Of a DNA stretch of 64,000 nt, positions 15,995-45,184 are shown one piece after another. How positions within the stretch are numbered: position 1 is the first letter of the stretch; each line of letters opens with the position of its first letter. The stretch spans positions 248,001 through 312,000 of the forward strand of contig NC_015554.1 in assembly GCF_000213655.1 (NCBI RefSeq), in the 5' to 3' direction. The position numbers and the translations under genes were made by a program. This DNA is from Alteromonas naphthalenivorans. Its GTDB lineage: Bacteria; Pseudomonadota; Gammaproteobacteria; Enterobacterales; Alteromonadaceae. The notes beneath the pieces were generated by a model. That model searched no databases. It was not told the DNA's origin and saw only the letters and a program-made list of their open reading frames with translations.

Positions 15995-16010
15995 TCCTCC
16001 TTTTGAATGA
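15995..16010. promoter_or_regulatory. weak PQQ-regulon box upstream of sensor kinase
   Basis: TCCTCC-TTTT-GAATGA matches the inverted-repeat consensus at 13 of 16 positions, with a good left arm and a degenerate right arm. It ends 83 bases before the kinase start, within the distance range of the stronger copies. Confidence 0.4.
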
Positions 16011-16093
16011 TTAAAACAGGGCTATTGCAGGATGTGTTTGTTAGCGAAGACTGTTTAGCATAAACACGTCTATTTTGTGTTTATGGTATTGCC

Positions 16094-17335
16094 ATGTCGG
16101 GGTTTAAGAAAATATCCAGTGCCATCGTGGCCGTCTTTATCGTGTGTTTTATTGTCTTTTCCTGCGCGGTCTATTTCCAAATTCGCCAAAATATAAACGA
16201 TGAAACATCCAGTGCGCTAAACCAAGTGCAAGAGATGCTTAAAGCGAATATGAATGCTAACGATATCAAGGCAGTTGCAGAGCAAAGCCCACACCTATCG
16301 GTATCAGGCTTTACTGGTCGGTTATCAATGCCTACTAATTATCATTCTGACAACCAACCTATCTATATTCCCATCCATGAAAATCAATATTTGGTAGTAA
16401 GAGCGCACAATACTGCCGAATTGGTGCAGAACATGAACCTTTTTTGGCTAGTGGTCGCGTTATTTTTTACAACCTTAAGCGTATTGCTATTTACGCTAAA
16501 AGTTGCCGTAGCGCAGCACTTGAAGCCTTTAAATCAATTGGGCTATGCTTTGCAACAACTTGTAGATGGCAAAGCAACGAATGATATTGAAGACAGTGAT
16601 ATTAAAGAAGTAAAGCGTGTTATTGGACAATTCCAACGCCTTCAAGACTCACTACAAAATAAAGAAAGGCAGTTGGTTAAAATAGATAAAAAACTCGCGC
16701 TGTTACAGGAGCAAGAAAGGAGCTATCTTGCTAGAGAGTTACACGATAATGTGGGGCAACTACTTACTACCATTAAAGCTCACGCCTATATTTTAGTGAA
16801 TTCAAATGAGCCCAGTGTGCTTGAGTTGTCTGCCCATAAAGTGCAGGCCATGAGCCAGCAAATTAGTGACGCCATTCGCCACTTAACGGTCCACCTCCAT
16901 CCGTTAGTGTTAGACCGGGTATCGTTACAGCAATCCCTTGAAAAACTGGTATTCGAACAAGAGCTAGCCCACCCTCAAATCGAATGGCAAGTTTCTATCA
17001 ATTTGAATAAATTTGCCCAAGAGCATGAGCGAGATATTCATATTTATCGCTTTGTTCAGGAAGCTATTAACAATGTGGTAAAACATGCTGATGCGTCAAA
17101 AGTATGGGTGCACATAGCCGGTAACAAGCAAGGGCTTACTATCAAAATTCGAGATGACGGCAAAGGGTTTGACGGAAATGCTGTTGAAAGTATTGGTATG
17201 TCATCTATGCACAGTAGAGCCAGGTGTATTGGCGCTAGCTGCGTCGTAAAATCACACAAAGAGGGCGGTGTAAGGGTTCAGTTGTCGCTCAGATTACAGG
17301 GCACTGAAGATTTGCGCCAGGTTAACGTTGCATGA
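16094..17335 (+). CDS. NarL-class sensor histidine kinase
   Basis: A 413-residue kinase with two membrane helices (about residues 9-30 and 114-138) framing a short periplasmic domain, a HAMP-like linker, a HisKA_3 dimerisation domain with the phosphorylated His in RELHDNVGQ (H217), and a HATPase domain (EAINNVVKHADA, then RDDGKGF and GMSSMHSRA). It overlaps the response regulator gene by 4 bases, so the two are a cognate pair. Position before the aldehyde dehydrogenase suggests control of alcohol oxidation, as EraS/EraR-type systems do in Pseudomonas; that link is inferred from location. Confidence 0.9.
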   Translation: MSGFKKISSAIVAVFIVCFIVFSCAVYFQIRQNINDETSSALNQVQEMLKANMNANDIKAVAEQSPHLSVSGFTGRLSMPTNYHSDNQPIYIPIHENQYLVVRAHNTAELVQNMNLFWLVVALFFTTLSVLLFTLKVAVAQHLKPLNQLGYALQQLVDGKATNDIEDSDIKEVKRVIGQFQRLQDSLQNKERQLVKIDKKLALLQEQERSYLARELHDNVGQLLTTIKAHAYILVNSNEPSVLELSAHKVQAMSQQISDAIRHLTVHLHPLVLDRVSLQQSLEKLVFEQELAHPQIEWQVSINLNKFAQEHERDIHIYRFVQEAINNVVKHADASKVWVHIAGNKQGLTIKIRDDGKGFDGNAVESIGMSSMHSRARCIGASCVVKSHKEGGVRVQLSLRLQGTEDLRQVNVA

Positions 17336-17961
17336 ATATCTTACTAGTAGATGACCATGCTGTAGTAAGAGAAGGTTATAAAGCTCTACTAAATGCCATG
17401 ATGCCTGAATGTACGGTTTTAGAAGCGGCTGATGGGCAGCAAACTCATCGTCTACTTAAAACGCACAATATCAACACCTTGGTTCTGGATATTAATCTTG
17501 CGAAAGAGAGTGGCTTATTGCTCGCCGCTGACTTTTTAGCCACGCAGCCTAATTTGAAAATCATATTTTTTAGTATGTTTGAGGATTGCGCCATATTACA
17601 GCGGGCAATGCAAACCGGCGCTATGGGGTATATCAGTAAAAGTAGCCCGCCAGATACACTTATATCAGCCATAAAAGTGGTGGCCAAAGGGCAAAAATAC
17701 ATAGAACGTTCATTGGCGGTTAATTTGGCTAATCAGCTGTTAAACGCTGATGTCGATATTGCTGCAAAATTAACGAAGCGTGAATTTGAAATCTTCATCG
17801 CAACGGCGATGGGTAAAACCCGATTTGATATTGCCAATGAATTAGCCCTGTCTGCGAAAACAGTGTCAAACGCGCTAACAGTGATAAAGCGAAAGTTAAA
17901 TACCATTCCTGCAGAATTTACCGAGCTGGCAACAAAACATGGTTATATTGGCAAGGCATAA
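17332..17961 (+). CDS. NarL/FixJ-type response regulator
   Basis: A 209-residue regulator: receiver domain (acidic pocket DD at 7-8, phosphorylated Asp D53 in LVLDINL, Lys in YISKSSP) and a C-terminal LuxR-type helix-turn-helix (LTKREFEIFIATAMGKTRFD, then IANELALSAKTVSNALTVI). It starts with ATGA overlapping the kinase stop, so translation is coupled. It is one of two candidate binders of the shared promoter boxes, the other being the regulator at 25549-26208. Confidence 0.92.
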   Translation: MNILLVDDHAVVREGYKALLNAMMPECTVLEAADGQQTHRLLKTHNINTLVLDINLAKESGLLLAADFLATQPNLKIIFFSMFEDCAILQRAMQTGAMGYISKSSPPDTLISAIKVVAKGQKYIERSLAVNLANQLLNADVDIAAKLTKREFEIFIATAMGKTRFDIANELALSAKTVSNALTVIKRKLNTIPAEFTELATKHGYIGKA

Positions 17962-17971
17962 ACTTCTTTTC

Positions 17972-17987
17972 CCCTCCTAAAGTAGGA
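17972..17987. promoter_or_regulatory. PQQ-regulon box upstream of aldehyde dehydrogenase
   Basis: CCCTCC-TAAA-GTAGGA matches the consensus inverted repeat at 14 of 16 positions and ends 117 bases before the start codon. Confidence 0.55.
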
Positions 17988-18104
17988 GCCAAATCGGCCT
18001 ATCGCATTATGGTGGATTGGCTGCAAAAGTACGATTATCAAATGACACAGTAAGCGATAACTAGCAGCGTGTTGACGCGCTAAGCATTCAAAAAAGGTGT
18101 CATT

Positions 18105-19622
18105 ATGATTTACGCAAATCCAGGAAGTGAAGGTTCAGTACTCAGTTTCAAAGAAAGTTATGGTAATTTTATCGGTGGTGAGTGGGTTGCGCCAGTTAAG
18201 GGCGAATACTTTATTACTACGTCTCCTGTCGATGGTAGTGATATAGCCAAAATTCCACGCTCTACTGCAGAAGATATTGAGCTAGCCATTGATGCTGCTC
18301 ATGCTGCCAAAAAAGGGTGGGCGGATACGTCAGTCGCTGAACGCTCGAACATTCTGTTAAAAATAGCCGATCGTATTGAAGCTAATCTTGAAATGCTCGC
18401 GGTTGCAGAAACATGGGATAACGGTAAGGCCGTGCGTGAAACACTTAACGCTGACGTCCCATTAGCCGCTGACCACTTCCGTTATTATGCTGGCTGTATA
18501 CGTAGCCAAGAAGGTACTATCGGCGAAATTGATAAGAACACAGTGGCTTATCACTTCCACGAACCATACGGTGTAGTAGGGCAAATCATTCCATGGAACT
18601 TCCCACTACTTATGGCGGCATGGAAACTCGCACCGGCTATCGTGACCGGTAACGTAGTGGTGTTAAAACCTGCAGAACAAACGCCAGTGTCTATTTTGGT
18701 TTTTGCTGAGCTTATTCAAGACTTGCTGCCGCCAGGCGTGCTCAATATTGTTAATGGTTTTGGTGCAGAAGCGGGGCAAGCGCTTGCTACAAGCACCCGA
18801 ATTGCGAAAATCGCCTTTACTGGCTCTACACCAGTAGGTGAACATATTCTTCGTTGCGCGGCTGAAAATCTTATTCCATCTACGGTTGAACTAGGCGGTA
18901 AGTCGCCGAACCTTTTCTTTCCCGATATTATGGATCACGAGCCGGAATTTATTGATAAATGTGCCGAAGGTTTAGTACTTGGTTACTTTAACCAAGGTGA
19001 AGTATGTACTTGCCCATCTCGTGCGGTTATTCATGAAGATATCTACGATGCCTTCATGGATAAAGTGATTGAAAAAATTCACAAAATTAAGCGTGGCAAC
19101 CCGCTTGATACCGAGACCATGGTAGGTGCGCAAGCGTCTAGTGAACAATTTGATAAAATCCTTAAGTACATTGATATCGGCAAATCAGAAGGCGCTGAAG
19201 TTGTCACCGGTGGTGAAAAAGAACAGTTACCAGGTTTAGATAAAGGCTATTACATTCAGCCCACCATATTGAAAGGGCACAACCAAATGCGTGTGTTCCA
19301 AGAAGAAATTTTTGGCCCAGTAATCGCGGTGCAAACCTTTAAAACCGAAGAAGAAGCGATTGAAATTGCAAACAACACCAGCTTTGGTTTAGGCGCAGGG
19401 TTATGGAGCAGAGATGCAAATATCGCCTTTAGAGTAGGCCGAGCTATTGAAGCTGGACGCGTGTGGACTAACTGTTATCACCTATATCCTGCCCATGCTG
19501 CATTTGGTGGTTATAAAAAATCGGGCATAGGCCGCGAAACTCATAAAATGATGATGGACCACTATCAGCAGACTAAAAACTTGCTGGTAAGTTACGACAT
19601 CAATCCACTTGGTTTCTTTTAA
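18105..19622 (+). CDS. exaC: NAD-dependent aldehyde dehydrogenase (ExaC/AcoD type)
   Basis: A 505-residue class of normal family length, closely resembling acetaldehyde dehydrogenases of the ExaC/AcoD group: [19 protein letters not shown], the GSTPVGE cofactor loop, VELGGKSPN with the catalytic Glu, and [11 protein letters not shown] with catalytic C301. It oxidises the aldehyde made by the quinoprotein alcohol dehydrogenase to the acid, with NAD in the cytoplasm. AAAGGTG precedes the ATG. A promoter box lies upstream and a hairpin directly after. The symbol is assigned by similarity and context. Confidence 0.9.
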
Positions 19623-19633
19623 TTAAGTGGGAA

Positions 19634-21753: not shown

Positions 21754-22894
21754 GCCTGCCAGTCAGTCAGCGTCCGCTGTATATGCGGCGGCAGACGCGT
21801 GTCATGACGTTGCCAGTGAAATTCTATCTAAAACGACTTTAGATGAAATAGAACTGGTACTTTTTCATACTTCAACGTCGTTCGATTTAGATGAAGTCGC
21901 GCATAATATGACATCGCTGTTTGTCAATGTGCCCACGGTCGGTTGCACTAGTGCCGGAGAGTTCAATAAAAACGGGTATTGTACCGAAAGCTTAGTTGTT
22001 GTTGCTTTCTTAAAGCATGATTTTTCCATAGCTACCGCGTTAGTTTCAAACGTAGATAAAATTAATTTTGACGAAGCCCATGACATTGCAAGTGGATTGC
22101 GCCATACCTTGCAGGCAAGAGATAAACGGTACGATACCAATCAGCACTTTGTCATTTCTGTGCTAGACGGGCTAACCCGACACGAAGAACATTTTTTAGA
22201 GACCTTTGCCACAGCGTTCGGCAATATTCCTCATTTAGGCGGCAGTGCTGGTGACGATTTAAAACTTGAAGCCACCTATGTTTTTTATCAGGGGAAATTT
22301 CATCAAAACGCAGCAGTGTTAATGTTGATAGGAACCGGTAAAGCGTTCTCTGTTTTTTCTGTCGATCATATCGACTCGCCAGTGTCTAAGTTGGTGGTAA
22401 CCAAAGCTGATCCAGAGTCTCGTACGGTTTACGAGATTAACGGCGAACCCGCTGCGCAATACTATGCAAGTTTGCTTGGGTTAAAGGCTTCTGATCTAAC
22501 CCCAGATGTGTTTTCAGTATTCCCATTGGCGGTACTAGTAGGGGATAGGTATTTTATCCGCTCAATACAAAAAGTAGATTTGGCCACCAACGCTATAACG
22601 TTTTACTGTGCGGTTGATATCGGCATTATTCTTACCTTTGTGCAACTTGGTGATTGTATCGATGTTCTAGAGAACAAGTTAGAAACGCTAACTCAGGAGT
22701 TAGGAGAGGCCGAATTTGTGTATACCTGTGATTGCTTTTTGCGGCGTTTAGAAATTGAACAAAACAAAAAAGAATCTGAAATTCAGCGATTGCAGCAAAA
22801 ATATCATGTAGGCGGGTTTAATGCTTATGGCGAACATATTCATTCGGTGCATTTAAACCAGACCTTCACGGGGGTGTACTTTGCTAAAAACTGA
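21719..22894 (+). CDS. FIST N/C domain signalling protein
   Basis: About 391 residues. The GTG at 21719 is chosen because AAGGT lies 8 bases upstream; the gene then overlaps the NosR-like gene by 35 bases. FIST_N covers about residues 30-215 (VPTVGCTSAGEF, then LGGSAGDDL) and FIST_C about 230-385 (FPLAVLVGDRYFIRS, then GGFNAYGEH). FIST domains are thought to bind small ligands, perhaps amino acids, and feed kinases or cyclases. It overlaps the hybrid kinase gene by 14 bases, so the FIST protein is probably that kinase's sensory partner. Confidence 0.88.
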   Translation: MSKTSILSALSKPASQSASAVYAAADACHDVASEILSKTTLDEIELVLFHTSTSFDLDEVAHNMTSLFVNVPTVGCTSAGEFNKNGYCTESLVVVAFLKHDFSIATALVSNVDKINFDEAHDIASGLRHTLQARDKRYDTNQHFVISVLDGLTRHEEHFLETFATAFGNIPHLGGSAGDDLKLEATYVFYQGKFHQNAAVLMLIGTGKAFSVFSVDHIDSPVSKLVVTKADPESRTVYEINGEPAAQYYASLLGLKASDLTPDVFSVFPLAVLVGDRYFIRSIQKVDLATNAITFYCAVDIGIILTFVQLGDCIDVLENKLETLTQELGEAEFVYTCDCFLRRLEIEQNKKESEIQRLQQKYHVGGFNAYGEHIHSVHLNQTFTGVYFAKN

Positions 22895-25484
22895 GCAGCA
22901 CCAAACCATTGACTCTCAAAGTAATGAAGAGAACCTAGCGCGTAATAAGAATGAAGCGTTCCCAGAGATTGAAGAGGATAAAACGCACGAGGAAACTGAA
23001 CTAGAGAAGCTACGTCGCGAACTCACACGCCAAATCGATGAAAATGAAAAGCTTGAAAAGATTAACGCTGCGCTTATGTATCGTATCGAAGAAGGTGGAT
23101 TCAATCACCATAGTTACCGGGCCTTTGAACATGCCGTGCAGTTATCTGAAAAAGTAAACGAGAAAACCGAAGCATTGCAAATCGTGCTGCAGAAGTTAGA
23201 AAAGTCGAATACTGAAATTGCACGCGCTAATCAAGAAACTAATCAACTCAAGCTGCGCCTAAATGACGCTATCGAAAGTATCAACCAAGCGATGGTATTG
23301 CTCGATAGTAGAGGGGCAGTGGTTTATTTCAATCGGCATTTTGTAACTGTTTGGGACAACTATTCAGTTACGCCAAAGATTGGTGATCATTATTATGATA
23401 TTACTCAACTTGCCAAGCATTTAGGGATTATCCGCCGTGTGCTTCCCCCTGACTCCGAAGGCCGAGTTATCTATCAACTGTCTAATAGCCGGTGGTATCA
23501 ACTGACTATTCGCCGTACTCAAGAAGGCGGGAAAGTTATCTTGTTTAACGATATCACTGAAGTGAAGTTAAATGAGTCAAATCGGTATGAGCAAGTAATA
23601 AAAGAGAAAAACAAACTGCTACAAAGTCTTATTGATAATGTTGATGTTGGTATCTTGCTTATTAACCAAGAGGGTGGCGTTGCCTTTTGGAACAATACGT
23701 TTATAACCCAATCTAATTTGTCGAAGCAGGCAATGTTTGATTGTAAGAATATTTATTCTCTGCAAATGCATGCTGACTGGAGCGGTTTAAACCTTGAGAA
23801 AGGTGGTGACACCACTCAAATTATTAACGAAAACTTGGTAGTCGATAGGCGAATTACTCTGCTTCCTGAAGGAAACACCCTGTGTACTTTTACCAATGTG
23901 ACGTCTCAGCATCAGTATGCGGAAACCTTGAAGCAGAACGAAAGTTGGATCCGCATGATTACCGATAATGTGCCCGCACTTATCGCCTATATCGGCACAG
24001 ATAAAAACTTCTTATACACCAACAAGGGTTATCGAGATTGGTATGGGCTAGGAGAAGAACCCTTGTACGGCGTAGCGATGGAACAAAGCCACCTTAAACA
24101 CGTCTATCCTCGTCTTATTCATTATGTAGAGCGAGTAAATAAAGGAGAGGTGGTTAGTTTTCAAAGTGAAGAAACTAACGCAAAAGGTGAAATCGGATTC
24201 TTACAAAAAGTCTATCTACCCCATTTCAACGATAAGAATGAAATAGAAGGGCATTTTGTTCTTGCTACTGATGTGTCACACCAAGTAAGAAGTAAACAAC
24301 AGCTACAAGCAGCGAAAGACCAGCTAGAGTCAAATGTAGAAAAGCGTACTCGAGAACTCAATCACGCAAATATTGCGCTGCAAGAAGCGATGAATTCAAA
24401 GAGCAAATTCTTAGCGGCCATTAGTCATGACTTAATGCAGCCTTTAAGTGCGGCTATTTTATTTAATGAGTCTTTAAGAGACCAAGTACAAGCATCTGCT
24501 GAACCAATAGTAAGTGCCTTAGATAACTCACTATCCGACTTAAACAGCCTAATCCGTACTCTGATTGAGACATCGAAATTAGACGCGGGTGTGGTGCAAC
24601 CTGACAAAAAGCGAGAGGATGCACTCCCATTGCTAACGCAGTTAGCTGAGGAGTTCAGCCACATCAGTCACGACTATGAAGTAAATTTTCGTTATAAATT
24701 CCAAGACGCTATTGTGCATACCGATTTAAGTTTGCTGTCACGAATTCTTCGTAATTTACTAAGTAATGCCATGAAATACGGTGCAAAAGGGAAAGTGCTT
24801 TTTGTGGCAAGGACGAAAGGCAACCATCTTCGCATCAGTATATTCGACCAAGGGGTTGGAATAAGCCAAGCCGATCAAGCTGTAATCTTCAAAGAATTTA
24901 GTCGATTGGAAAATGACTTTAACTATTCTTACAGTTTAGGACTTGGGCTTTATATCGTTGATAAAATGAGTCGTCTACTAGAGCATGATATCAACGTTAT
25001 ATCTACGCAAGGGGTAGGATCTTGTTTTACTTTAACGGTGCCCCTTGCATCTATTCAAGACATTGAGCACGAGGCTTCGTTTGATGCGGTACCTCAAGAT
25101 AGCTTGCCTGATAACCTTTTAGATAAACAAATTTGGCATATCGACAATGACACCAATATGCGGATAGCCATGCAGACGCTATTCGAAAATTGGGGTGTGG
25201 AAGTGGTTACGTTTTCAGGTTTTGCACAATGCATGGCGGTGATGGACCATTGCTTTGACGAGTGTGATTTGCTTATTGTCGATTATCATTTAGATGACGG
25301 AGAGAACGGGTTAGAAATTGCGAAGCATATTAAGCAAACCATGCCGGCTATGCCCATTATGCTGTGTACGGCCAATCATTCTAAAGCGCTAGAAAATGAA
25401 TTAGAAGGGACAAATATACAGCTGTTGCACAAGCCGATTAATTCACTACGCTTGAAACAAGCACTTAAATCGGCTGTTTCTTAA
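22881..25484 (+). CDS. PAS hybrid histidine kinase (ErcS-like)
   Basis: 867 residues, TTG start with GGGGGTG upstream, overlapping the FIST gene. No membrane helices are seen. In order: N-terminal coiled coil (to about 130), two or three PAS-like modules (about 130-470), another coiled coil, HisKA with H516 in AAISHDLMQPL, HATPase (NLLSNAMKYGAKG, FDQGVGIS, SLGLGLYIV), and a C-terminal receiver (D801 in LLIVDYHLDDGENG). It resembles the cytoplasmic ErcS-type kinases of Pseudomonas ethanol oxidation regulation. The convergent LuxR-type regulator may be its output. Confidence 0.88.
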   Translation: MLKTEQHQTIDSQSNEENLARNKNEAFPEIEEDKTHEETELEKLRRELTRQIDENEKLEKINAALMYRIEEGGFNHHSYRAFEHAVQLSEKVNEKTEALQIVLQKLEKSNTEIARANQETNQLKLRLNDAIESINQAMVLLDSRGAVVYFNRHFVTVWDNYSVTPKIGDHYYDITQLAKHLGIIRRVLPPDSEGRVIYQLSNSRWYQLTIRRTQEGGKVILFNDITEVKLNESNRYEQVIKEKNKLLQSLIDNVDVGILLINQEGGVAFWNNTFITQSNLSKQAMFDCKNIYSLQMHADWSGLNLEKGGDTTQIINENLVVDRRITLLPEGNTLCTFTNVTSQHQYAETLKQNESWIRMITDNVPALIAYIGTDKNFLYTNKGYRDWYGLGEEPLYGVAMEQSHLKHVYPRLIHYVERVNKGEVVSFQSEETNAKGEIGFLQKVYLPHFNDKNEIEGHFVLATDVSHQVRSKQQLQAAKDQLESNVEKRTRELNHANIALQEAMNSKSKFLAAISHDLMQPLSAAILFNESLRDQVQASAEPIVSALDNSLSDLNSLIRTLIETSKLDAGVVQPDKKREDALPLLTQLAEEFSHISHDYEVNFRYKFQDAIVHTDLSLLSRILRNLLSNAMKYGAKGKVLFVARTKGNHLRISIFDQGVGISQADQAVIFKEFSRLENDFNYSYSLGLGLYIVDKMSRLLEHDINVISTQGVGSCFTLTVPLASIQDIEHEASFDAVPQDSLPDNLLDKQIWHIDNDTNMRIAMQTLFENWGVEVVTFSGFAQCMAVMDHCFDECDLLIVDYHLDDGENGLEIAKHIKQTMPAMPIMLCTANHSKALENELEGTNIQLLHKPINSLRLKQALKSAVS

Positions 25485-34522: not shown

Positions 34523-35277
34523 TAGAATCTCCCTGTATGGCAAACCTGTTGATTGGCAATGCCATCGAAAGGTTTTCTGCCATATTCATAAGCGAAACAA
34601 ATAGCATCGGCAATGCTCCACAGAATATCTATTTTAAATTGAAGAATGTTCAAAGCACGCTCTTGTTGATTGCGGGTAACAAAGTGGTCGAGCGTTATTT
34701 GAAGGCCGTGTTCTACATCGCGCCTTGCTTGCCCTAAACGCATTTGAAAATAGGTAAACCCTTCTTGGTTTATCCACGTGTAGTGAGTGGGCCAGGTATC
34801 AAGACGGCTTTGGTGTATTTCAGGCGCAAACATTTCGGTAAGTGATGAACAAGCGGCTTCTTGCCACGATGCGCGGCGTGCAAAATTTACATAGGCATTT
34901 ACCGCGAATTTTACGCCGGGCAATATGTGAAATTCATTAAGTAATTCATCGCGGTTAAGCCCTACCGCTTCCCCTAGACGGAGCCATGCTTCAATACCGC
35001 CTAAACTGGTATCACCTTCCCGGCCATCATGGTCGATAAGCCTCTGAATCCAGGTGCGTCTTACTTCTTGATCTTCACAGTTTGCTAATATGGCGGCATC
35101 TTTAACTGGAATAGCCATTTGATAATACAGCCTGTTTGCCACCCAGCCTTGTATTTCTTCTTTACTGCAATGCCCTGCATTCATACGTTTATGGAAGGGA
35201 TGATGGATATGGTAATACGCACCTTTTGCGCGTAATTGCTGTTCGAATTCTTCTTTTGTCCATGCAGGTTTCAACAT
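34522..35277 (-). CDS. pqqC: pyrroloquinoline-quinone synthase PqqC
   Basis: 251 residues, the standard length. Family blocks include [45 protein letters not shown] and [18 protein letters not shown]. PqqC is a cofactor-free oxidase that carries out the final ring closure and oxidation to PQQ. One base separates it from pqqB, and it shares one base with pqqD, so the cluster is tightly coupled. Confidence 0.97.
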
Positions 35278-35278
35278 G

Positions 35279-36199: not shown

Positions 36200-36269
36200 A
36201 ACTACTCCTTGGGTATTTGAAAAAGGCTGCAATAGCAGCCTTTTGATTACTTATCACGATGGCTTAGGT

Positions 36270-36341
36270 CTAACGGTTGCTGATATATAGCGTTACTTCA
36301 AAACCTAGGCGCATTTCAGTGTATTGAGGTTTAGTCCACAT
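36270..36341 (-). CDS. pqqA: PQQ precursor peptide PqqA
   Basis: A 23-residue ORF starting [16 protein letters not shown], with the invariant Glu15 and Tyr19 (E-V-T-L-Y) that become the PQQ skeleton. A GAGGAAA ribosome site lies upstream, and it is the first gene of the pqqABCDEF order. The stop is TAG. It is preceded by a promoter box. Confidence 0.96.
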
Positions 36342-36407
36342 CGTCATTTCCTCTGTCTTTTTGGGTGAGTTCAATATGAGTATATGTTGATTATCTGTTA
36401 ACAGATA

Positions 36408-36423
36408 TCCTTCTAAAGGAGGA
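36408..36423. promoter_or_regulatory. PQQ-regulon box upstream of pqqA
   Basis: TCCTTC-TAAA-GGAGGA differs from the consensus inverted repeat at one base. It is 66 bases upstream of the pqqA start and just downstream of the aminopeptidase stop. Confidence 0.6.
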
Positions 36424-36436: not shown

Positions 36437-38131
36437 TCATGATGATTTTTGGACAGTGGCTAGGCGTTGCAAATAGGCCACCAGTAAGGGAATAGGGCGG
36501 CCGGTAGCCGAATTGGCAGTACCATATTTAAATGCGGTACCAGCCACATCCATATGAGCCCAAGAAAAATTTTTAGCGAAGCGGGACAAAAAGCAGCCTG
36601 CGGTAATCATACCTGGTGAGTTTTTCCCTGCGTTTGTCATATCGGCATGAGAAGAGGCTATAGCGTCTTGATATTCGGGCCATAATGGAAATGGCCAAAT
36701 TGGATCTTGGGCGTGTTCACCAGCCTTAATTAGTGCTTGTTCTAGTGGGCGGGAATTACTCATTACACTGCTGCATTGGTACCCCAAAGCAGTAATAGCA
36801 GCGCCGGTTAGCGTTGCTATATCTATGACTGAGTGGGGGGCGAAACGCTCACTGTAACTTAGTGCATCGCACATTAGCATGCGCCCTTCAGCATCTGTGC
36901 TTATCACTTCAACGGTTTGTTTTGAGTGGGTAGTAATAATATCGCCGGGCCGGTATGCATTACCGCCAATACTGTTTTCAGCGGTAGCCAATATTCCAAT
37001 AATGTTAATGTTTAAGCCGAGTTCTGCAACCGCTTTTATTACTCCAAGTACGCACGCTGCACCTGCCATGTCGTAAATCATGTGGTGCATATCTCCTCCT
37101 CTTTTTAAGGTGATGCCGCCCGAATCAAATGTTACACCTTTCCCTATTAAGACTACCGGCTTGGTATTTTTGGCGTCATTGCTTTGCGTAGCGCCATTTC
37201 CTGAATAACGAATCACCGGCATAGAAGCAGGAAATGCCGATGCGCGATTTACTGCCAAATAGGCATTCATACCTAGCGATTCCAATGTATCTTGATCGAT
37301 AATCTCGGTAGTAATTTTAGAATACGCATCCGCGAGTATTGTCGCCTGGTCGGCCAAATAAACTGGGGTACATAAATTCGCTGGCATGTGAGACAAATCT
37401 CGCGCTAAGCCCATACCATTTGCTAGTGCGGCCTCATAATTAACGCAGGCCAGTAGTGCATCTGAGGTATTGTCCGATGCTAGCGCAGAGTCTCCATTAA
37501 GTGCTTCGACTGAAGCTTCATTTAACGCCTTATCTAAAACTAGGTTAGCTGCCACGTCTGTTGACGATACTTGTATGTTTAAGCTAGGCATTACGTTAGA
37601 TAACAAGTGAGGGGAAGATTTATATCCTTTAAATTGATAGCAACAAAAATGAATAGCTCGCAATAACTGGCGAACCAGCGATATACCTAGCTCTCTCTGT
37701 TTGCTTGCGCTGTGCATAGTGAGGGAAGTAGTGTGGCTGATAGCACTGTAAGTCGTTCCCCAAGGCAGTACCAAAGTGATTGTTGCCGCCTTTAACGAAA
37801 GCGCGTACTTAAACATATCAACAAATAGCTTACGTGTGCCGTGAGAAGCTGAAGGATGATCAAAACTAAGGCTGATATTCTCTTCTAAATTACCCGCTCC
37901 CCATATAAGCCATCGTTTTGCCGCGGTCTCTACAGGCCGGTGAAGTAACACCTTTTGGCCTTGCGAGCCTACAAATTCTTCATCATTAAATATCTGCTGA
38001 ATAAATGCTTGAGTGCTATGTGGCATGTTTTCAATGGTGGGTTGTATATCGGTGGGTGAGCAAAGCCATATTACGCAATCGGCGACTACTTCGTGTAAGT
38101 TGCGGTGAGGTGCTAATGTTACGTTTGTCAT
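36437..38131 (-). CDS. M17 leucyl aminopeptidase-like protein
   Basis: 564 residues. The C-terminal catalytic domain has M17 metal motifs: [28 protein letters not shown] and [14 protein letters not shown], with the bicarbonate-site Arg in EGR. The N-terminal 200 residues are divergent. It overlaps the ABC permease gene by 4 bases and ends just before the pqqA promoter. M17 peptidases remove N-terminal residues in the cytoplasm. Placement between a PQQ-associated exporter and pqqA suggests a role in trimming or recycling PqqA-derived peptides, though this is inference. Confidence 0.88.
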
Positions 38132-39033
38132 GGGCGCCCTTGTTGGTTTGCTTTTATGCGCTGTTTTTTCCCATCGCTCTTATTTCCAATCCCTTTATTT
38201 CCAGCCCCCTTATTTCCAGCTCCACTGTTTCCAGAGTTTCCAGAGCTGGAAGTTGAAAAGCTAGCAGCAGGTTTTGGCCTAAAGCTTCTTACGGCGAAGG
38301 TAAAGGTAATTAGAGTGAGCACAAGTACAATCACTAGCTCTTTTGCTGCAAGCTTTTCATACAAGCCAAAGCGCAGTAGCTCAACACCACTGGTAAAAGG
38401 ATTAAAGGCGCACACTTTATACAGCCATTCGCTTGCTTCTTGCATTTTCCACAATGGATAAAGCGCACTTGAAAGGAAAAACATTGGAAAGATAACGAAG
38501 TTCATCACACCAGCAAAGTTCTCTAATTGCTTAATGGAATTCGCCAGCAATAAGCCCAGCGAGCCAAGAAAAATAGACAGTAATGCAATGATAGGAAGCG
38601 CGTAGACATAACCCATTAAGGGCAACTGCACATCAACAAGTAAGGCAAAGCAAAAGAATAAATAAACCTGTATTGCTGAAACCAGTGTGTTGGCCACCAA
38701 TTTACTACAAAGCAGAAATGAACGGGGTACTGGGCTCATTAACAGTACCTTCATGCTGCCCATTTCTCGGTCGTAAACCATAGACAGCGAGCTTTGCATA
38801 CTGTTAAACAACACAATCATGGCGGCTAACCCTGGTACAATGTATTCCTCATACAGAATGTAAGTCTCGTAGGGCGGTATCATAGAAAGCCCTAGCGCTG
38901 AACGAAATCCCGCGGCAAACACAAATAGCCATAGCAAGGGGCGAACCAGCGCACTTAACAGCCGAGAACGTTGCTGCCAAAATTTCAGCATTTCTCGGTT
39001 TAATACGCCTACAAAACAGCGCCAGTACATCAT
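38128..39033 (-). CDS. PQQ-associated ABC-2 type permease (PedC-like)
   Basis: 301 residues with about six membrane helices and the ABC-2 permease pattern (YIVPGLAAMIVLFNSMQSSL, then EMGSMKVLLMSPVPRSFLL). It is the membrane partner of the ATPase gene upstream. The C-terminal tail (about 255-301) is low complexity, with repeats of A-G-N-K-G encoded by repeated CCTTATTTCCAG-type units on the + strand. Such ABC sets accompany quinoprotein alcohol oxidation loci in many proteobacteria; the substrate is not known. Confidence 0.88.
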   Translation of the reverse strand: MMYWRCFVGVLNREMLKFWQQRSRLLSALVRPLLWLFVFAAGFRSALGLSMIPPYETYILYEEYIVPGLAAMIVLFNSMQSSLSMVYDREMGSMKVLLMSPVPRSFLLCSKLVANTLVSAIQVYLFFCFALLVDVQLPLMGYVYALPIIALLSIFLGSLGLLLANSIKQLENFAGVMNFVIFPMFFLSSALYPLWKMQEASEWLYKVCAFNPFTSGVELLRFGLYEKLAAKELVIVLVLTLITFTFAVRSFRPKPAASFSTSSSGNSGNSGAGNKGAGNKGIGNKSDGKKQRIKANQQGRP

Positions 39034-39084
39034 GCCGGAACCTTAGTCTGTGTAATTTGCTTGCACTTATAGAGGGTATTGATA

Positions 39085-39804
39085 TTAGTTTGCACGAGTT
39101 AATACATCCCAAAGCTGATGAATATCCGAGACCTGATGTTTAGTAAGCAGCGCCGAGCAAATATCTCGTTCTACTAATTGCCCATTTAGTAATATGGCGA
39201 GGGGATCCGTCGGCGATACTTCTTCAAATAGGTGAGTAGCCCACAGCACAGTCACGCCTTGTTTCACTGCTAAGTCATGAACCACCGAATGAATTAACCG
39301 CCGAGAAGCAATATCTAACCCTACGGTGGGTTCATCGAGTAATAAGGTACTAGGTTGGTGAATAAGGCATCTTGCCAGCTCAACACGACGGCGGTGGCCA
39401 CCATTTAAATAACGGATTTTAGTGTTCAGGCGGTCGCTAAGATCAAGTTTCGTCAATAAATCAGTAATACGTGAAATTGATTTGTCTGGGGCGAGTCCGT
39501 GAAGCGAGGCAAAATAGGCTAAGTTTTGCTTTACGGTAAGGTCGATATCTAGCGTACTTTGCTGAAACACCACGCCGAGATTTTTCATAATCGAAGCGCG
39601 GTTTTTTGTTATCGGCTTGCCATTAAATAAAATATTTCCTTGGCCAATTCGTTGTAACCCTGTGAGCAACCCAAATAGGCTACTTTTACCTGCGCCATTA
39701 GGGCCAAGTAAAATATTAAAGCCCGGTTTAAGGGTCAGTGAAATTTCATCAAGGGCTGCTACTTTGCCGTAAGTGTGGGTAACCCCTTGGATATCTATTT
39801 CCAT
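39085..39804 (-). CDS. PQQ-associated ABC transporter ATPase
   Basis: 239 residues with Walker A LLGPNGAGKSS, Q-loop (VVFQQS), a signature in the variant form LNGGHRRRVELARC, Walker B TLLLDEPTVGLD and the switch His (WATHLFEE). It overlaps the beta-propeller gene by 10 bases and is followed by the permease. It belongs to the ABC-2 exporter ATPases found beside quinoprotein dehydrogenase genes. Confidence 0.92.
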   Translation of the reverse strand: MEIDIQGVTHTYGKVAALDEISLTLKPGFNILLGPNGAGKSSLFGLLTGLQRIGQGNILFNGKPITKNRASIMKNLGVVFQQSTLDIDLTVKQNLAYFASLHGLAPDKSISRITDLLTKLDLSDRLNTKIRYLNGGHRRRVELARCLIHQPSTLLLDEPTVGLDIASRRLIHSVVHDLAVKQGVTVLWATHLFEEVSPTDPLAILLNGQLVERDICSALLTKHQVSDIHQLWDVLTRAN

Positions 39805-40775
39805 TTAACGGCAATTCCCCATGGGTAACGTCCCACCTTAATCGTTTTTTCAACATCGAGAGTTTCAGTATTAATAACCGACACGTCGCCGCTTACCCCG
39901 TTTGTGGTGAGTAATAGTGACTGGTCTTGGTTAAAGGCTAATTGCCACACGCGCCGTCCTACAACTATGTATTTCTCTATTTCAAACGTACTAGTGTTTA
40001 CCACAGCAACGCGATTTGCGGGGCCTAGGGCGACAAACGCGTAAGGGGAGTCTTTCATCAGCAATATACCAACGGGTTGTATTTTGTCGCGGTACACGCC
40101 TTTAACTGCAAAAGATAAGGTATGCGCTTTTTGTTTGGTTTGAGTATCAAATATGGTGACTGTGCCGCCAAGTTCAGAGCTTACCCAAAGGTACTTATCG
40201 TCAGCAGTAAAGTGAGCGTCTCGCGGGCGAGCATCTACTAAGCTGTTAGCAATGTTCTCGTGGGTGTTGGTGTCTATCCAGTGCACCATGTTTGTTGTTT
40301 CTGAAGTAACCACCATCATGCGGCCGTCATGGCTTACCGCTAACCCTTCAGGTTCAACCCCTACATCTATTTGTGCAATTACCTGGCTGGTGGGAATATC
40401 AATAACGGTGAGCAGAGCATCATCTTCATTGGCGGTGTAAATAGTAGTGCCATTTGGGTGCAGGGCTATGGTTTCAGGATCTTCACCTGACGGTAAATCA
40501 CCGACAATAGTATGGGTGTCTAAATCGATAATTTGAATGCGATCGGAATCCGAGGCGCAAATGTAAGCATGGGCTTGGTCAGCGCTTAGTATAAAGCCCC
40601 TTGGTCGCTCACCAATGTCTAATGTGTCGGTGACTTCAAACGTATTCATATCAATGACTGATAGGGTATTGTCTTTTTCATTGGTTACATATGCCTGTGG
40701 CATAGCACTTACACTTAGGCTAGTAGCCCACAAACTTAGTAACCAAATACTAGTAACTACAAATTGCGTTCTCAT
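39795..40775 (-). CDS. PQQ-associated YVTN beta-propeller protein
   Basis: 326 residues with a signal peptide (VVTSIWLLSLWATSLSVSA) and about seven YVTN-type blades (AYVTNEKDNTLSVID, TIYTANEDDALLTVID, LLLTTNGVSGDVSVINTETL). It matches the beta-propeller group linked to PQQ-dependent catabolism. The protein should be periplasmic and overlaps its neighbours on both sides (4 and 10 bases), so it is part of the ABC operon. Its role is unknown; PQQ or protein binding is possible. Confidence 0.9.
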   Translation of the reverse strand: MRTQFVVTSIWLLSLWATSLSVSAMPQAYVTNEKDNTLSVIDMNTFEVTDTLDIGERPRGFILSADQAHAYICASDSDRIQIIDLDTHTIVGDLPSGEDPETIALHPNGTTIYTANEDDALLTVIDIPTSQVIAQIDVGVEPEGLAVSHDGRMMVVTSETTNMVHWIDTNTHENIANSLVDARPRDAHFTADDKYLWVSSELGGTVTIFDTQTKQKAHTLSFAVKGVYRDKIQPVGILLMKDSPYAFVALGPANRVAVVNTSTFEIEKYIVVGRRVWQLAFNQDQSLLLTTNGVSGDVSVINTETLDVEKTIKVGRYPWGIAVKWK

Positions 40776-42013
40776 AGGGCGTCCTTACAAGTAGTGGTGG
40801 CATCACCTAGGGTGTCTAGTTCATCGCGTTGGTGTAAAAAGCCAGGCAGGGGGGCGTGGATCACTAGCGCTTCTTCGTGTGCTAGAGACACAGGCTGGCG
40901 AAGTTGGCGGGTGCCTTTTCTAAAGGTGAGTTGCCTACCTTGATACGCTGCAATACTGAGTTGGTCATCTACTAATGCGTTAAATAATTTTGTACCTGTA
41001 ACAGGCTCATGGGTATCAGAATCATTGTTTTCACTTCGCTGCAATGCGGTCGATATGGCGATAATGGCTGCATAAGCAGCAAAGTCTACGTCATTCATAT
41101 TGCGCGAAAACTTTTCCTTAAAACGATTTTGCAGCTGCCTTGCGCCCCATTGCTCATGAGTAAAATGCCACCCTAATGGTTTCAAACCTGCCGACCCTAT
41201 AATGGGCACAATAAGGTGGGTATTAAAGGGTAAGCTGTAGGCATACTGACCTTGGGTGTCGGCAGCAAAAATAGCGTCGTAAGGTTTCTTAGTCCGAGTA
41301 AAAAGGGGAATTTCAGAAAATGCAGAGCGTCGTAAATCAAAACTTGCCTGCCATATTTTCTCTTCAACAATATTTAACTTAAATTTCTTCGCGGTACGTA
41401 AAAACGCGTCTAAGTAAGCCTGATCACTTTCATGGGAGCCGCGCAAGGTAAGCACAGAGCTCAAACGCTTAGTTCTAAGCCACTGACCAAGCGCATCGGT
41501 TTTCATTTGGTAGCTAGGGTAGGTGTGCAGTACGTTAAGTTCGCAGTGCTGTTGACGAAAAGCATCCTTGCCACTGGCTACATTCACCACTAATGCGCTG
41601 GGGTTAATAGACACTACCGAACGAACGGCTTTTTCATATTGAGCGTCTGGGCTATCGATAAGCACCACAGAGGTATTGGCAATCACATCGGTAGCCGCTG
41701 AGTCAAAAGCGTCAAGGCGGGCAAGCGACAGCGAATAGCCCAAAAATTTTCCTGTAATATTGGCATCTTCAATGCCAATTTCGGCACCCGCAATTCCTTC
41801 GTCATTAGGACGGGTTAAATACGAAGGCGTTCCTGCGGGGGGAGGGCGCTCCACGTTAATATAGACAATGTTCGTAGTGCTAGGTTGGGCTTCAGCTTGC
41901 CCTACATATTTATTTTCTGGCTGACTCCCCGATTGGGCATGAACATTGGCATGCAAGGCCGATACGCTTATCAATAGGATTGATACTCCTATCCATATTT
42001 TTACTTTTTCCAT
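40772..42013 (-). CDS. PQQ-associated ABC substrate-binding protein
   Basis: 413 residues from the ATG at 42013, chosen because a signal peptide follows (KIWIGVSILLISVSALHANV), while the upstream in-frame ATG (42121) would place charged residues before it and overlap the promoter box. It has the branched-chain amino acid receptor-like fold (GAEIGIEDANITGKFLGY, then YDAIFAADTQGQYAYSLPF) seen in binding proteins of quinoprotein loci. First gene of the minus-strand ABC operon. Confidence 0.85.
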   Translation of the reverse strand: MEKVKIWIGVSILLISVSALHANVHAQSGSQPENKYVGQAEAQPSTTNIVYINVERPPPAGTPSYLTRPNDEGIAGAEIGIEDANITGKFLGYSLSLARLDAFDSAATDVIANTSVVLIDSPDAQYEKAVRSVVSINPSALVVNVASGKDAFRQQHCELNVLHTYPSYQMKTDALGQWLRTKRLSSVLTLRGSHESDQAYLDAFLRTAKKFKLNIVEEKIWQASFDLRRSAFSEIPLFTRTKKPYDAIFAADTQGQYAYSLPFNTHLIVPIIGSAGLKPLGWHFTHEQWGARQLQNRFKEKFSRNMNDVDFAAYAAIIAISTALQRSENNDSDTHEPVTGTKLFNALVDDQLSIAAYQGRQLTFRKGTRQLRQPVSLAHEEALVIHAPLPGFLHQRDELDTLGDATTTCKDAL

Positions 42014-42120
42014 GAACCAGCGAAGGGCTTTTCTCACACTTCTTTTCACACTTTTTTTAAAAGTGTGCCTTTTGTCAGTCGCGATACAAAAAGGGTATAT
42101 GGCATTATTCCCGAATAACA

Positions 42121-42136
42121 TCCCCCTAAAGGAGGA
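42121..42136. promoter_or_regulatory. PQQ-regulon box between divergent binding-protein genes
   Basis: TCCCCC-TAAA-GGAGGA differs from the consensus at one base. It lies 107 bases from the start of the minus-strand ABC operon and 84 bases from the start of the plus-strand XoxJ-like gene, so it could serve both. Confidence 0.6.
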
Positions 42137-42220: not shown

Positions 42221-43120
42221 GTGACTTGTTTGCGAACCTTTTATTTTATTCCTTTCATACTTTTAAGTTTTTTAAGCTTGAATGTATTAAGCACCAGTGT
42301 TTTTGCTCGGTCTTTTGATGACATTATCGAAAGTAAGAAGATTAATATCGCGGTTTATAATGACTACCCACCTTACTCATACATGGAAGCGGGTTCAGCG
42401 AAAGGAATAGATGTTGATATAGCTAAAGAAATTGCTGCTAAATTCAATGTGGAATTAGTGTTAACTTGGATGACCCCCGGGGAAACAACGGAAGACGATT
42501 TTCGTAATTTTTTATGGAAGGGGCACATTATTCACAAAGTAAAAGCTGACTTAATGATGCGTGCTCCCTACGACCGTTCTTTTTCCCAAAAACGTGATGA
42601 TATTGGCTTATTAGCGAATGAGTTAGTTCATATGTTCGCACCGTATCAACAAGAAAGCTGGCAGATAATTCACAACACAGAACAGTTGCCAGAGGTAGAG
42701 ACCATGGCAATGTTTCAATACCATACCATTGGTGCTGAAATAGACAGTATTCCTCATTTTTACCTCACCTCGGCCTTTGGCGGAAGGTTACGAGATAACA
42801 CCTCTCAGTATGCTAGCAATGAACTTGCCATCGATGCCATGAAAAAAGGTGATGTTGATGCGGTAATGGGCCTTCGAACACAAATTAGCTATTTGTCTCA
42901 GTTTCTTGATAACACAAAATTCAAACTCGCTAGCAACGCGTTTCCTCTTATAGGAAAACAGAAGTGGGATTTAGGTATAGCCGCGCACAACGACTACCGA
43001 ACCCTAGCGTATGAAGTTGGCGATGTAATTACCGAGATGGTACTGACCGAAAAAATGGCGCACATTTTTAGTCAGTATCATGCCGCCTATGAAATGCCAG
43101 ATTATTATGCTGTTGAGTAA
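42221..43120 (+). CDS. XoxJ/MoxJ-like substrate-binding protein
   Basis: 299 residues, GTG start, signal peptide ending LSTSVFARS, then a family 3 solute-binding fold (INIAVYNDYPPYSYMEAGSA, then KGIDVDIAKEIAAKF) with the MMRAPYDRSFSQKRDDIGLL block typical of quinoprotein dehydrogenase-associated binding proteins. XoxJ/MoxJ proteins help activate or assemble periplasmic quinoprotein dehydrogenases. It sits directly upstream of the alcohol dehydrogenase gene, as xoxJ sits near xoxF. Confidence 0.87.
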   Translation: MTCLRTFYFIPFILLSFLSLNVLSTSVFARSFDDIIESKKINIAVYNDYPPYSYMEAGSAKGIDVDIAKEIAAKFNVELVLTWMTPGETTEDDFRNFLWKGHIIHKVKADLMMRAPYDRSFSQKRDDIGLLANELVHMFAPYQQESWQIIHNTEQLPEVETMAMFQYHTIGAEIDSIPHFYLTSAFGGRLRDNTSQYASNELAIDAMKKGDVDAVMGLRTQISYLSQFLDNTKFKLASNAFPLIGKQKWDLGIAAHNDYRTLAYEVGDVITEMVLTEKMAHIFSQYHAAYEMPDYYAVE

Positions 43121-43182
43121 TGCCGGCGAGCAATGCTATTGCAATAGCTCCACTTTTATTAGGCACATTTCCTGTTAATTCC

Positions 43183-43198
43183 TCCTCCTAAAGGAGGG
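43183..43198. promoter_or_regulatory. PQQ-regulon box upstream of alcohol dehydrogenase
   Basis: TCCTCC-TAAA-GGAGGG, nearly the perfect inverted repeat (15 of 16), ends 112 bases before the start codon. Confidence 0.65.
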
Positions 43199-43310
43199 GA
43201 CAATTCACTCAGCCGTTCCATAGGCACGCCCATCGGGCACCGCTATTCTAATTCTATCGAATAGTCTGAAAATCAGACACATTCATGGCCAATACGCATT
43301 AGGAAACGTT

Positions 43311-45098
43311 ATGAATAAACAACTACCACTAAAAAGAATTGCCTTAGCTTTATTGGTTTGTGCGGGGGCAATTTCCCCCGTTCAAGCTAACGTGACCGAC
43401 AAAGATATACAAAACGACCAAGCCACTACTGACGATATCGTATCGTATGGCATGGGATTACGCGCGCAGCGCTATAGCCCACTATCTGCAATTAACAAAG
43501 ACACCATTGAAGAAATTCGCCCAGTTTGGGCATTTTCGCTTGGTGGCGAAAAACAGCGGGGCCAAGAGTCTCAGCCTATGGTAAAAGATGGCGTTATGTA
43601 TGTGACGGGTTCTTACTCTCGCGTATGGGCCATTAATGCGATGACTGGCGAAGAACTCTGGCAGTACGAAGCTCGTTTGCCCGATGGTATTATGCCTTGT
43701 TGTGATGTGATTAATCGCGGCGTAGCCTTGTACGATAATTTGGTCATATTCGGCACCCTTGATGCCAAACTGGTAGCCCTTGATAAAGATACGGGCAAAA
43801 CCGTATGGAAGAAAAAAGTAGAAGACTACAAGGCTGGTTACTCCATTACTGCCGCGCCTATTATTATTGATGGTATGGTGATAACGGGTAACTCGGGTGG
43901 TGAATTTGGTGTAGTAGGAAAGGTATACGCCTTTGATGCTAAAACTGGCAAACAGATTTGGGTTAGACCTACTGTTGAAGGCCACATGGGTTATATGTGG
44001 AAAGACGGTGAAAAAACCGAGAATGGTATTTCTGGCGGCGGGGCGGGTAAAACTTGGCCTGCAGATTTATGGAAAACTGGCGGTGCTGCAACCTGGCTAG
44101 GCGGCACTTATGATGCTGATACAGGGCTGTTATTCTTTGGTACAGGTAACCCATCACCTTGGAACTCTCACCTTCGCCCTGGCGATAACTACTTCTCTTC
44201 ATCTCGTTTAGCGATTAACCCTAAAACGGGAAAAATTGTATGGCACTTTCAAACTACGCCACACGATGGCTGGGATTTCGATGGTGTAAACGAGCTTATA
44301 TCGTTTGATTATGAAGAGGCAGGTAAAACGGTGAAGGCCGCTGCCACTGCAGATAGAAACGGCTTCTTTTATGTATTGAACCGTGAAGATGGTGATTTCA
44401 TTCGAGGCTTCCCGTTTGTAGATAAGCTAACGTGGGCCAAAGGCCTAGATGAGAATGGCCGCCCACTTTACATTGACGAAACGCGTCCTGGTAATCCGTC
44501 ACTTTCAGACGATGGTAAAAAAGGCGCACAGGTTGTCGCTCGTCCTGCTTTCTTAGGTGGAAAAAACTGGATGCCTATGGCGTATTCACCTGATACGGGT
44601 TTGTTCTATGTACCTTCCAACGAATGGGAAATGGATATTTGGAACGAAACCACCTCATATAAAAAGGGCGCTGCTTACTTAGGTGCTGGCTTTACTATCA
44701 AATCTGTCAATGAAGACTTTATAGGTGTACTTCGCGCCATTGACCCTAAAACCGGTAAAGAAGTATGGCGTTATAACAACTATGCGCCACTATGGGGTGG
44801 GGTAATGACTACAGGCGGCGGTCTAGTATGGACAGGCAACCCAGAAGGTTACCTAATGGCCTTTGACGATAAAACCGGAAAGATGGTTTATAAGTTCCAA
44901 ACCGGCTCAGGCATTGTAGGGTCGCCAGTAACTTGGGAGATGGAAGGCGAGCAATATGTGTCTGTGTTGTCTGGCTGGGGCGGTGCAGTGCCTTTATGGG
45001 GCGGCGAAGTTGCTAAGCGGGTTAAGCACCTAAACCAAGGTGGTACGGTGTGGACGTTTAAATTACCAAAGCGTTATGAACAAGTGGCTAAGAACTAA
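43311..45098 (+). CDS. PQQ-dependent alcohol dehydrogenase, lanthanide-type signature
   Basis: 595 residues with a signal peptide ending SPVQA and the eight-bladed quinoprotein propeller. Seen: vicinal cysteines C130-C131 (IMPCCDV) forming the ring over PQQ, the metal ligands Glu in NSGGEFG and Asn in GTGNPSPWN, and D322-F-D324 in [11 protein letters not shown]. In calcium enzymes the second Asp is Ala (MxaF) or Ser (ExaA); Asp there marks lanthanide-dependent XoxF and PedH/ExaF. It should oxidise alcohols in the periplasm and pass electrons to the PedF-type cytochrome downstream. AGGAAA precedes the ATG and a strong terminator follows. Confidence 0.93.
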
Positions 45099-45118
45099 TT
45101 TGTTTTAAATACGATAGA

Positions 45119-45149
45119 AGCCGATACCTTTGTAGGTATCGGCTTTTTT
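45119..45149 (+). terminator. terminator after alcohol dehydrogenase
   Basis: AGCCGATACC and GGTATCGGCT form a perfect 10-bp stem around TTTGTA, followed by TTTTT. A textbook intrinsic terminator. Confidence 0.92.
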
Positions 45150-45168
45150 ATATCTGAAATAGCCTTTA

Positions 45169-45184
45169 TCCTCCCAAAGGAGGA
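45169..45184. promoter_or_regulatory. PQQ-regulon box upstream of cytochrome c
   Basis: TCCTCC-CAAA-GGAGGA has perfect 6-base arms and ends 78 bases before the cytochrome start. Confidence 0.65.

Follow-up and report, generated by a model that had tools for sequence, protein, structure and literature searches.

A 16-bp palindrome before the alcohol-oxidation promoters of Alteromonas naphthalenivorans, proposed as the operator of an AgmR-type response regulator

The response regulator AgmR (also ErbR or PedR1) of Pseudomonas is known genetically as the activator of alcohol oxidation dependent on pyrroloquinoline quinone (PQQ); it activates ped and pqq genes and, as PP_2665, lies in the published gene order PP_2663–PP_2667 (PMC12997753). 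Activation by CrbR, a sister regulator, depends on an inverted repeat located at −52 to −36 (PMC5715377). For AgmR, a predicted (ErbR) regulon is mentioned in PMC5487730, and no operator was found in the literature searched, including the excerpts of PMC12997753, PMC13390443, PMC8402216, PMC5487730, PMC8546858, PMC9765439 and PMC9927353; the excerpts of the 2026 ped-cluster review (PMC12997753) contain none of the terms "palindrom," "inverted repeat" or "consensus," and the names of the regulator do not occur in PMC13086498. Here we consider a 64,000-nucleotide stretch of the Alteromonas naphthalenivorans genome (contig NC_015554.1, positions 248,001 to 312,000; hereafter the window), which carries a PQQ/alcohol-oxidation cluster comprising ExaC, NosP, a NahK-like kinase, PqqB, PqqC and PqqE, ATP-binding cassette (ABC) genes of the Ped type, a PQQ-dependent alcohol dehydrogenase (ADH), PedF, and two LuxR-type response regulators, RR1 and RR2. 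A palindrome shared by the main promoters of this cluster is described, and RR2, which is of the AgmR type, is proposed to bind it.

The 16-bp palindrome is a real feature of these promoters. It has a 7-2-7 layout (TCCTCCT-AA-AGGAGGA), and a scan of the window with the consensus TCCTCCTAAAGGAGGA at ≤3 mismatches gave 12 strand-matches against 0.30 expected from shuffles, a number that none of 100 shuffles reached. Across the 4.97-Mb genome, six places match at ≤2 mismatches, all six in this locus, and a reversed control pattern has no match at that threshold. An earlier note on this DNA, made from the sequence alone, had described seven copies with a 6-4-6 arm split, 62–117 bases before start codons and absent outside the locus. 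All seven are present where it placed them, and the genome scan (≤2 mismatches) bears out their confinement, finding no copy outside the locus, which goes against one of the refuting conditions named in the note; the arms, however, are 7-2-7, the gaps to the start codons are 60–117 bases, and the note overlooked one more site, the eighth, which precedes the porin gene (28660–28675). Because the site at 42121 lies between the divergent pedA1A2BC unit and that of a periplasmic substrate-binding protein (SBP), the eight sites would serve nine transcription units, if each marks a promoter. The longer spacer that had been seen at 31253 is rejected, since the ordinary 16-bp register fits several orthologs with one mismatch, and the copy at 15995, regarded as weak (three mismatches), proves to be kept in position among relatives (Table 1). 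A further weak match, at 22228–22243 (−), was not counted as it falls inside the nosP coding sequence (codons Pro-His-Leu-Gly-Gly on the coding strand); it is nearer to the consensus in several relatives, probably by coding coincidence. A strict pattern applied to the same genome found four places (one in the locus, three outside) vs. six for its control and catches just one of the eight sites, and the regulon was not extended with it. At the six copies with ≤2 mismatches the plus strand always reads TAAA or CAAA, although the genes that they would serve occur in either orientation.

Matches at ≤2 mismatches were counted in 59 genomes of the genus, of which 34 have at least one. In seventeen genomes four or more places cluster at a single locus (4–7 each, including the nosP coding match in six genomes), and the remaining 42 have 0–2 scattered places. 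The locus was then compared between the A. naphthalenivorans genome and the 16 others, taking the best site in the 300 bases upstream of each ortholog (for pqqA, position was measured from pqqB). Sites precede exaC, the porin gene, pqqA, the SBP gene, the ADH gene and pedF in 17/17 genomes each, and the gene for the sensor kinase HK1 and that for the TonB receptor in 16/16 evaluable genomes each; the motif is thus conserved in the orthologous promoters, contrary to a second refuting condition of the note. Relative to the projected start, the TonB receptor site is found between −78 and −174, and the porin site has only two mismatches in two other family members (L175, L176). Most members of one subclade have a perfect palindrome, TCCTACCTTGGTAGGA, as their HK1 site; both arms depart together from the consensus, and the symmetry is kept. 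Upstream of RR1 (with the G049 row set aside as a contig-end artefact), nosR, nosP, nahK, RR2, SHOCT, tonB, M16, pqqE, lap and pedC, the best matches have 4–8 mismatches; certain ones keep a constant position between relatives, such as that near −131 of nosR, within the exaC coding sequence.

The 17 genomes with clustered sites are exactly those that encode a close ortholog of RR2, at about 87% identity or higher (Fisher p 3.6e-15, with genomes treated as independent, which they are not). RR2 has both Response_reg and GerE domains, and we infer that the palindrome is very probably the DNA-binding site of this AgmR/ErbR/PedR1-type protein, acting as an activator of the promoters of the cluster. 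As we envisage it, an alcohol-linked signal would cause a sensor kinase, perhaps the adjacent NahK/PedS1-like hybrid kinase (a possible partner of RR2), to phosphorylate RR2; RR2 would dimerise on the pair of 7-bp arms, at a position that overlaps the −35 region or immediately precedes it, and would recruit RNA polymerase. By this means RR2 would switch on PQQ synthesis, the PQQ-dependent ADH, cytochrome c550 and aldehyde dehydrogenase, and also the Ped ABC transporter, the porin, the TonB receptor, and the HK1–RR1 pair.

Both LuxR-type regulators had been named in the earlier note as candidate binders, and the evidence favors RR2 (25549–26208) over RR1 (17332–17961). If RR1 bound the palindrome, it would be a local regulator comparable to ExaE/PedR2 that autoregulates its own operon, and its setting accords with this: it is encoded between two sites, one of which belongs to its own operon, and each of the 17 window-clade loci has it (truncated in G049, where the contig ends). 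We nevertheless consider this improbable. Seven family members (L177–L183) have TCC-type sites and RR2 without RR1 at the locus, and when their genomes were searched directly, five gave no hit to RR1 at E ≤ 1e-30, vs. hits of 61–64% in the positive-control genomes G652 and G663; RR1 therefore does not accompany the site wherever it occurs. The other two (G512 and G430) encode a 43–44% RR1 homolog away from the locus, so that the case against RR1 is weaker in those two. RR1 was found at E ≤ 1e-50 in 16/395 genomes of the family. The VKxH pattern is missing from its DNA-binding helix, which reads TVSNALTVI, and where a 50% RR1 homolog is present, in five genomes of the genus, the sites are of TAC type in the four clusters fetched. 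The helix region of RR2, in contrast, is nearly unchanged across the 17 window-clade genomes.

The placement of the sites within the promoters is consistent with a protein-binding element. In nine aligned promoters, two of which have one site in common, mean column identity in the site, over the alignment rows listed, exceeds that of the flanks by at least 0.13 for HK1, exaC, the TonB receptor, pedA1, ADH and pedF, and by 0.08–0.11 for the porin gene, SBP and pqqA. At the pqqA promoter, TATACT starts at +24 from the site in 17/17 genomes, and similar hexamers are AATACT or GATACT at +24 (15/16 TonB receptor promoters), TATACC at +22 (15/17 pedA1 promoters) and TAGAGT at +18 (16/17 pedF promoters); the −10-like hexamers of the HK1 and ADH promoters are poor. 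Taking the hexamers as −10 boxes would place the sites at roughly −51 to −36 or −45 to −30, which is near the position of the CrbR repeat (−52 to −36). The two distances, +18 and +22 to +24, are about half a helical turn apart, and they appear to pair with the central letters of the site (AA at +18, TT at +22 to +24; HK1 is an exception), which we offer as an idea only. As RNA, the two arms could pair with each other, and GGAGG is part of their sequence; the palindrome might instead be a hairpin in the 5′ untranslated region that hides a GGAGG, or a dispersed repeat. We give this very little credence: with a −10-like hexamer conserved downstream in several promoters, the site would be upstream of transcription; one site lies between two divergent units; and, unlike a mobile repeat, the sites keep their position and are better conserved than their flanks.

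A regulator encoded elsewhere in the genome, such as an ErdR/CrbR ortholog, would be another candidate. The ACTU motif of CrbR is the same kind of inverted repeat in the same kind of position, and most of the ethanol-oxidation cluster has lower expression in a P. aeruginosa erdR mutant (PMC8546858). Against this, RR2-like proteins of 37–48% identity (which may include ErdR orthologs) are also encoded in 38 of the 42 genomes of the genus that lack clustered sites, the sites are confined to this locus at ≤2 mismatches, and the 15 P. aeruginosa promoters mapped for ErdR include neither ercS nor agmR (PMC9927353). In a tree of 52 proteins (with a long-branch warning), RR2 is separate from the ErdR/CrbR clade, and it misses the NCBIfam ErdR cut-off. 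Binding by such a paralog is, in our estimation, unlikely, somewhat more so than binding by RR1, and RR2 remains the preferred regulator.

RR2-type loci outside the clade have a related box. A class-wide scan for RR2 (E ≤ 1e-55) hit only 3/369 genomes, including that of A. naphthalenivorans; because this was too sparse, an alignment of six RR2-type proteins served as the query for a second scan, and the 80 highest-ranking named loci among the matches listed were retrieved; they include 27 Pseudomonas-type loci (24 labelled Pseudomonas, and three metagenome-assembled genomes assigned to Pseudomonadaceae or Paucimonas). At 16 of these 27, pedC, nahK and nosP are all beside the RR2-type regulator, as in the published PP_2663–PP_2667 order; RR2 itself has nosP, nahK/pedS1 and porin neighbors as at PP_2662–2665. 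A wider box pattern, TNCTMCYNNRGKAGNA (≤2 mismatches), was searched for at 43 named loci (L095–L138, without L136), and was found upstream of pedF in 23/24, nosP in 20/33, ADH in 15/22, pedA1 in 8/17, exaC in 3/8 and pqqA in 3/4 cases, vs. 7–9% for shuffled controls of these upstream regions. In further controls, which include operon-internal genes, the box precedes pedB in 0/26, pedA2 in 0/25, nahK in 1/33, SBP in 0/16, HK1 in 0/3 and pqqB in 2/4 cases. The known AgmR targets pqq and pedF thus have the box in both lineages, weakly for pqqA, at which just two of three boxes are at a comparable distance. A typical Pseudomonas pedF site is TACTACC-AA-GGGAGTA, and a site at ≤1 mismatch is present at 17/27 loci of the Pseudomonas type. 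In Pseudomonas (L098–L137) a box is also found at about −110 of nosP, followed at +24 by a TACACT-like hexamer in 11/13 rows; by such a box the nitric-oxide sensor would be tied to AgmR.

Within the genus of A. naphthalenivorans, a second RR2-type group (46–48% identity, 14 genomes) has the cluster without an adjacent RR1 and with TAC-type sites, such as TTTACTACCTAAGTACAA before pedF (7/14 loci fetched). In the family, RR2-type hits at E ≤ 1e-55 occur in 52/395 genomes, from which 20 loci were fetched. Sixteen short pqqB regions of other class members (L079–L094), a weak control, have no site at ≤2 mismatches of the pattern applied to them apart from one (L089), as would be expected if AgmR is absent. 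These comparisons suggest that the window site is a local variant in the spelling of a box that is found at AgmR-type loci in Pseudomonas and elsewhere.

The spelling of the half-site varies together with the recognition helix of the regulator. With position 2 of the half-site left free in the search pattern, and L188–L191 (also KSHVSS) outside the count, loci with a VKSHVSS helix have C at that position in 100% of half-sites in the window clade (103 sites, 22 distinct), and in 100% (4 sites), 83% (6), 75% (4) and 100% (1) in other groups. At VKAHVSA loci, C is found in 12% (Pseudomonas-type, 25 sites), 20% (5) and 0% (14), the base being mostly A, G or T. The residue of RR2 that follows VK (A or S) aligns with Asn183 of DosR, one of three residues reported to make base contacts (PMC4082495). 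Downstream promoter sequence is shared across the two helix types: ACCAAAG stands 11 bases after the pedF site in 17/17 window-clade genomes, and CCAAAGCAG is at the same +11 place in 12/13 Pseudomonas-type rows with sites at ≤1 mismatch, but not in the other rows L132, L133 and L134. It is conceivable, with chances slightly below even in our view, that the whole regulon changed its operator spelling together with its regulator, the helix going from VKAHVSA to VKSHVSS in one Alteromonadaceae clade and some eight promoters from A, G or T to C at the second half-site base, with downstream sequence such as the ACCAAAG before pedF staying as in Pseudomonas. Specificity may be set by a small number of helix residues, chiefly the one that aligns with Asn183 of DosR. 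Diverged operator spellings with correspondingly diverged regulators would form a natural pair for studying the rewiring of a regulon.

Several observations weigh against RR2 as the binder or against its co-variation with the box. In the same tree the VKSH rows form one clade (100/99), as do the rows that we label ErdR-like (100/99); the covariation thus amounts to a single event and is no proof alone of which residue matters, and many other residues of the RR2 domain differ too. The wider box pattern was drawn up with sites already in view, and it also precedes the internal control pedC in 5/26 cases and RR2-type hits in 12/54; 10/27 Pseudomonas-type loci are without a site at ≤1 mismatch. 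Two of the RR1-less relatives, L181 and L182, also carry a TACTACT-type site (TAC half-sites) before tonB. The six g307/g277 loci, which have a VKSH-type RR2, yielded just one site at ≤1 mismatch near known genes, with most ped genes lying outside the 20 kb fetched; the further loci L188–L191, outside that count, have sites at two mismatches only, in 3/4. Lastly, RR1 is always present in the window clade, and so presence alone cannot set the two regulators apart there.

The features of the locus are collected in Table 1. The split of the TonB receptor into two open reading frames (ORFs) is a frameshift or an assembly error; a single open frame spans both parts in 9/9 orthologs checked. The gap before pqqE would fit a putative pqqD. 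Among the ped transporter genes, pedB (296.3 vs. cut-off 302.25) and pedA1 (339.6 vs. 413.6) score just under their models; the listed ORF start of pedA1, 42121, overlaps the 42121–42136 site, and the true start is probably downstream of it. The ADH (43311–45098) is 69–72% identical to one ADH type of Pseudomonas loci vs. 48–51% to another, and the PedA1A2BC genes have been called a lanthanide transporter (PMC12997753); on these grounds the alcohol-oxidation system may be lanthanide-dependent. An active-site Asn of the ADH that had seemed unusual was dropped from consideration, as Asn and Asp alternate there among relatives. Beyond pedF lie a small ORF (45971–46399) and an ORF for a GGDEF protein (46454–48097) with weak TPR-like N-terminal matches, possibly one broken gene.

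Table 1. Proposed AgmR-type sites and genes of the alcohol-oxidation cluster (positions in the window; gap, bases from site to start codon; scores in bits where so marked).
Feature	Position	Strand	Details
Site before HK1/RR1 operon	15995..16010	+	TCCTCCTTTTGAATGA; gap 83 to ATG; at −99 in 16/16 evaluable genomes, 2–5 mismatches
Site before exaC	17972..17987	+	CCCTCCTAAAGTAGGA; gap 117; identical in 17/17
Site before porin gene	28660..28675	-	TAGTCCTAAAGAACGA; gap 141; 17/17 at −146 to −180, 3–5 mismatches
Site before TonB receptor	31253..31268	-	TCCCTCTTTAGGAGGA; gap 62; 16/16 evaluable, 1–4 mismatches
Site before pqqA	36408..36423	-	TCCTCCTTTAGAAGGA; gap 60; 17/17, 1–2 mismatches
Site between divergent pedA1A2BC (-) and SBP/XoxJ-like gene (+)	42121..42136	+	TCCCCCTAAAGGAGGA; 17/17 from SBP, 0–1 mismatch
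Site before PQQ-dependent ADH	43183..43198	+	TCCTCCTAAAGGAGGG; gap 112; 17/17, 0–3 mismatches
Site before cytochrome c550 pedF	45169..45184	+	TCCTCCCAAAGGAGGA; gap 78; 17/17, 1–2 mismatches
RR2, NarL/FixJ-type response regulator of AgmR/ErbR/PedR1 type, proposed binder	25549..26208	-	PF00072 85.4 bits; PF00196 73.7 bits
HK1, UhpB-like sensor kinase, proposed target operon	16094..17335	+	UhpB model 129.6 bits, under cut-off
RR1, second LuxR-type response regulator, proposed target	17332..17961	+	
exaC, acetaldehyde dehydrogenase	18105..19622	+	NF050026 931.6, cut-off 900
NosP-like nitric-oxide-sensing protein	21776..22894	+	NF041558 475.9 bits, cut-off 450; listed ORF start 21686
Hybrid kinase, NahK/ErcS'/PedS1-like	22881..25484	+	NF041831 596 bits, under its 1500 cut-off
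Porin	27289..28518	-	PF13609 62.3, cut-off 27
TonB-dependent receptor	28745..31190	-	Two ORFs in this assembly
pqqA, pqqB, pqqC, pqqE	33091..36347	-	
pedC, pedB, pedA2, pedA1, ABC transporter operon	38128..42121	-	pedC and pedA2 models above cut-off
XoxJ-like periplasmic SBP (name from the earlier note)	42221..43120	+	Weak matches to binding-protein models only
PQQ-dependent ADH	43311..45098	+	TIGR03075 771.7, cut-off 480
Cytochrome c550 PedF	45263..45763	+	TIGR04494 127.1, cut-off 122

That no operator of this form had been described for the regulon, as the earlier note put it, stands insofar as none was found for AgmR in the literature searched, but the ACTU motif of a sister regulator resembles the site. 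ACTU is the nearest described operator in the literature searched (CrbR/ErdR, of the CrbS/R or MxtR/ErdR systems; PMC5715377): it too is an imperfect inverted repeat before a sigma-70 promoter, needed for activation by a LuxR-type regulator, and one example, TACGACTAAAGTCTAAA, has a CTAAAG core in common with the window site. The layout is alike, whereas the half-site is TCCTCC here and of a TAC..AC type in ACTU; RR2 scores 164 bits on the NCBIfam ErdR model (cut-off 390); and ACTU precedes acs/actP, whereas the window sites precede PQQ and alcohol genes (6/6 in the locus). HK1 and RR1 recall ExaDE/PedS2–PedR2 as the second two-component system of an alcohol cluster, regulators 41–42% identical to RR1 being encoded at 8/27 Pseudomonas-type AgmR loci, a likeness by identity alone; here, unlike in those systems, the counterpart is an apparent target rather than the favored binder. 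A defined box would turn the genetic evidence on AgmR into a testable list of direct targets, and could separate these from the targets of ExaE/PedR2. A DNA affinity purification sequencing (DAP-seq) survey of P. aeruginosa response regulators, reportedly by Trouillon et al. in 2021, may contain an ErbR motif. With the Pseudomonas AgmR/ErbR/PedR1 system, the locus shares a regulator (RR2, 46–51% identical) encoded beside nosP and nahK, an overlapping gene set (pqq, pedF, ADH and the Ped ABC genes), and a 7-2-7 box before pedF and other genes. It differs in that half-site position 2 is C here and mostly A or G in Pseudomonas, and in that the window sites also stand before the TonB receptor, the porin, and HK1–RR1.

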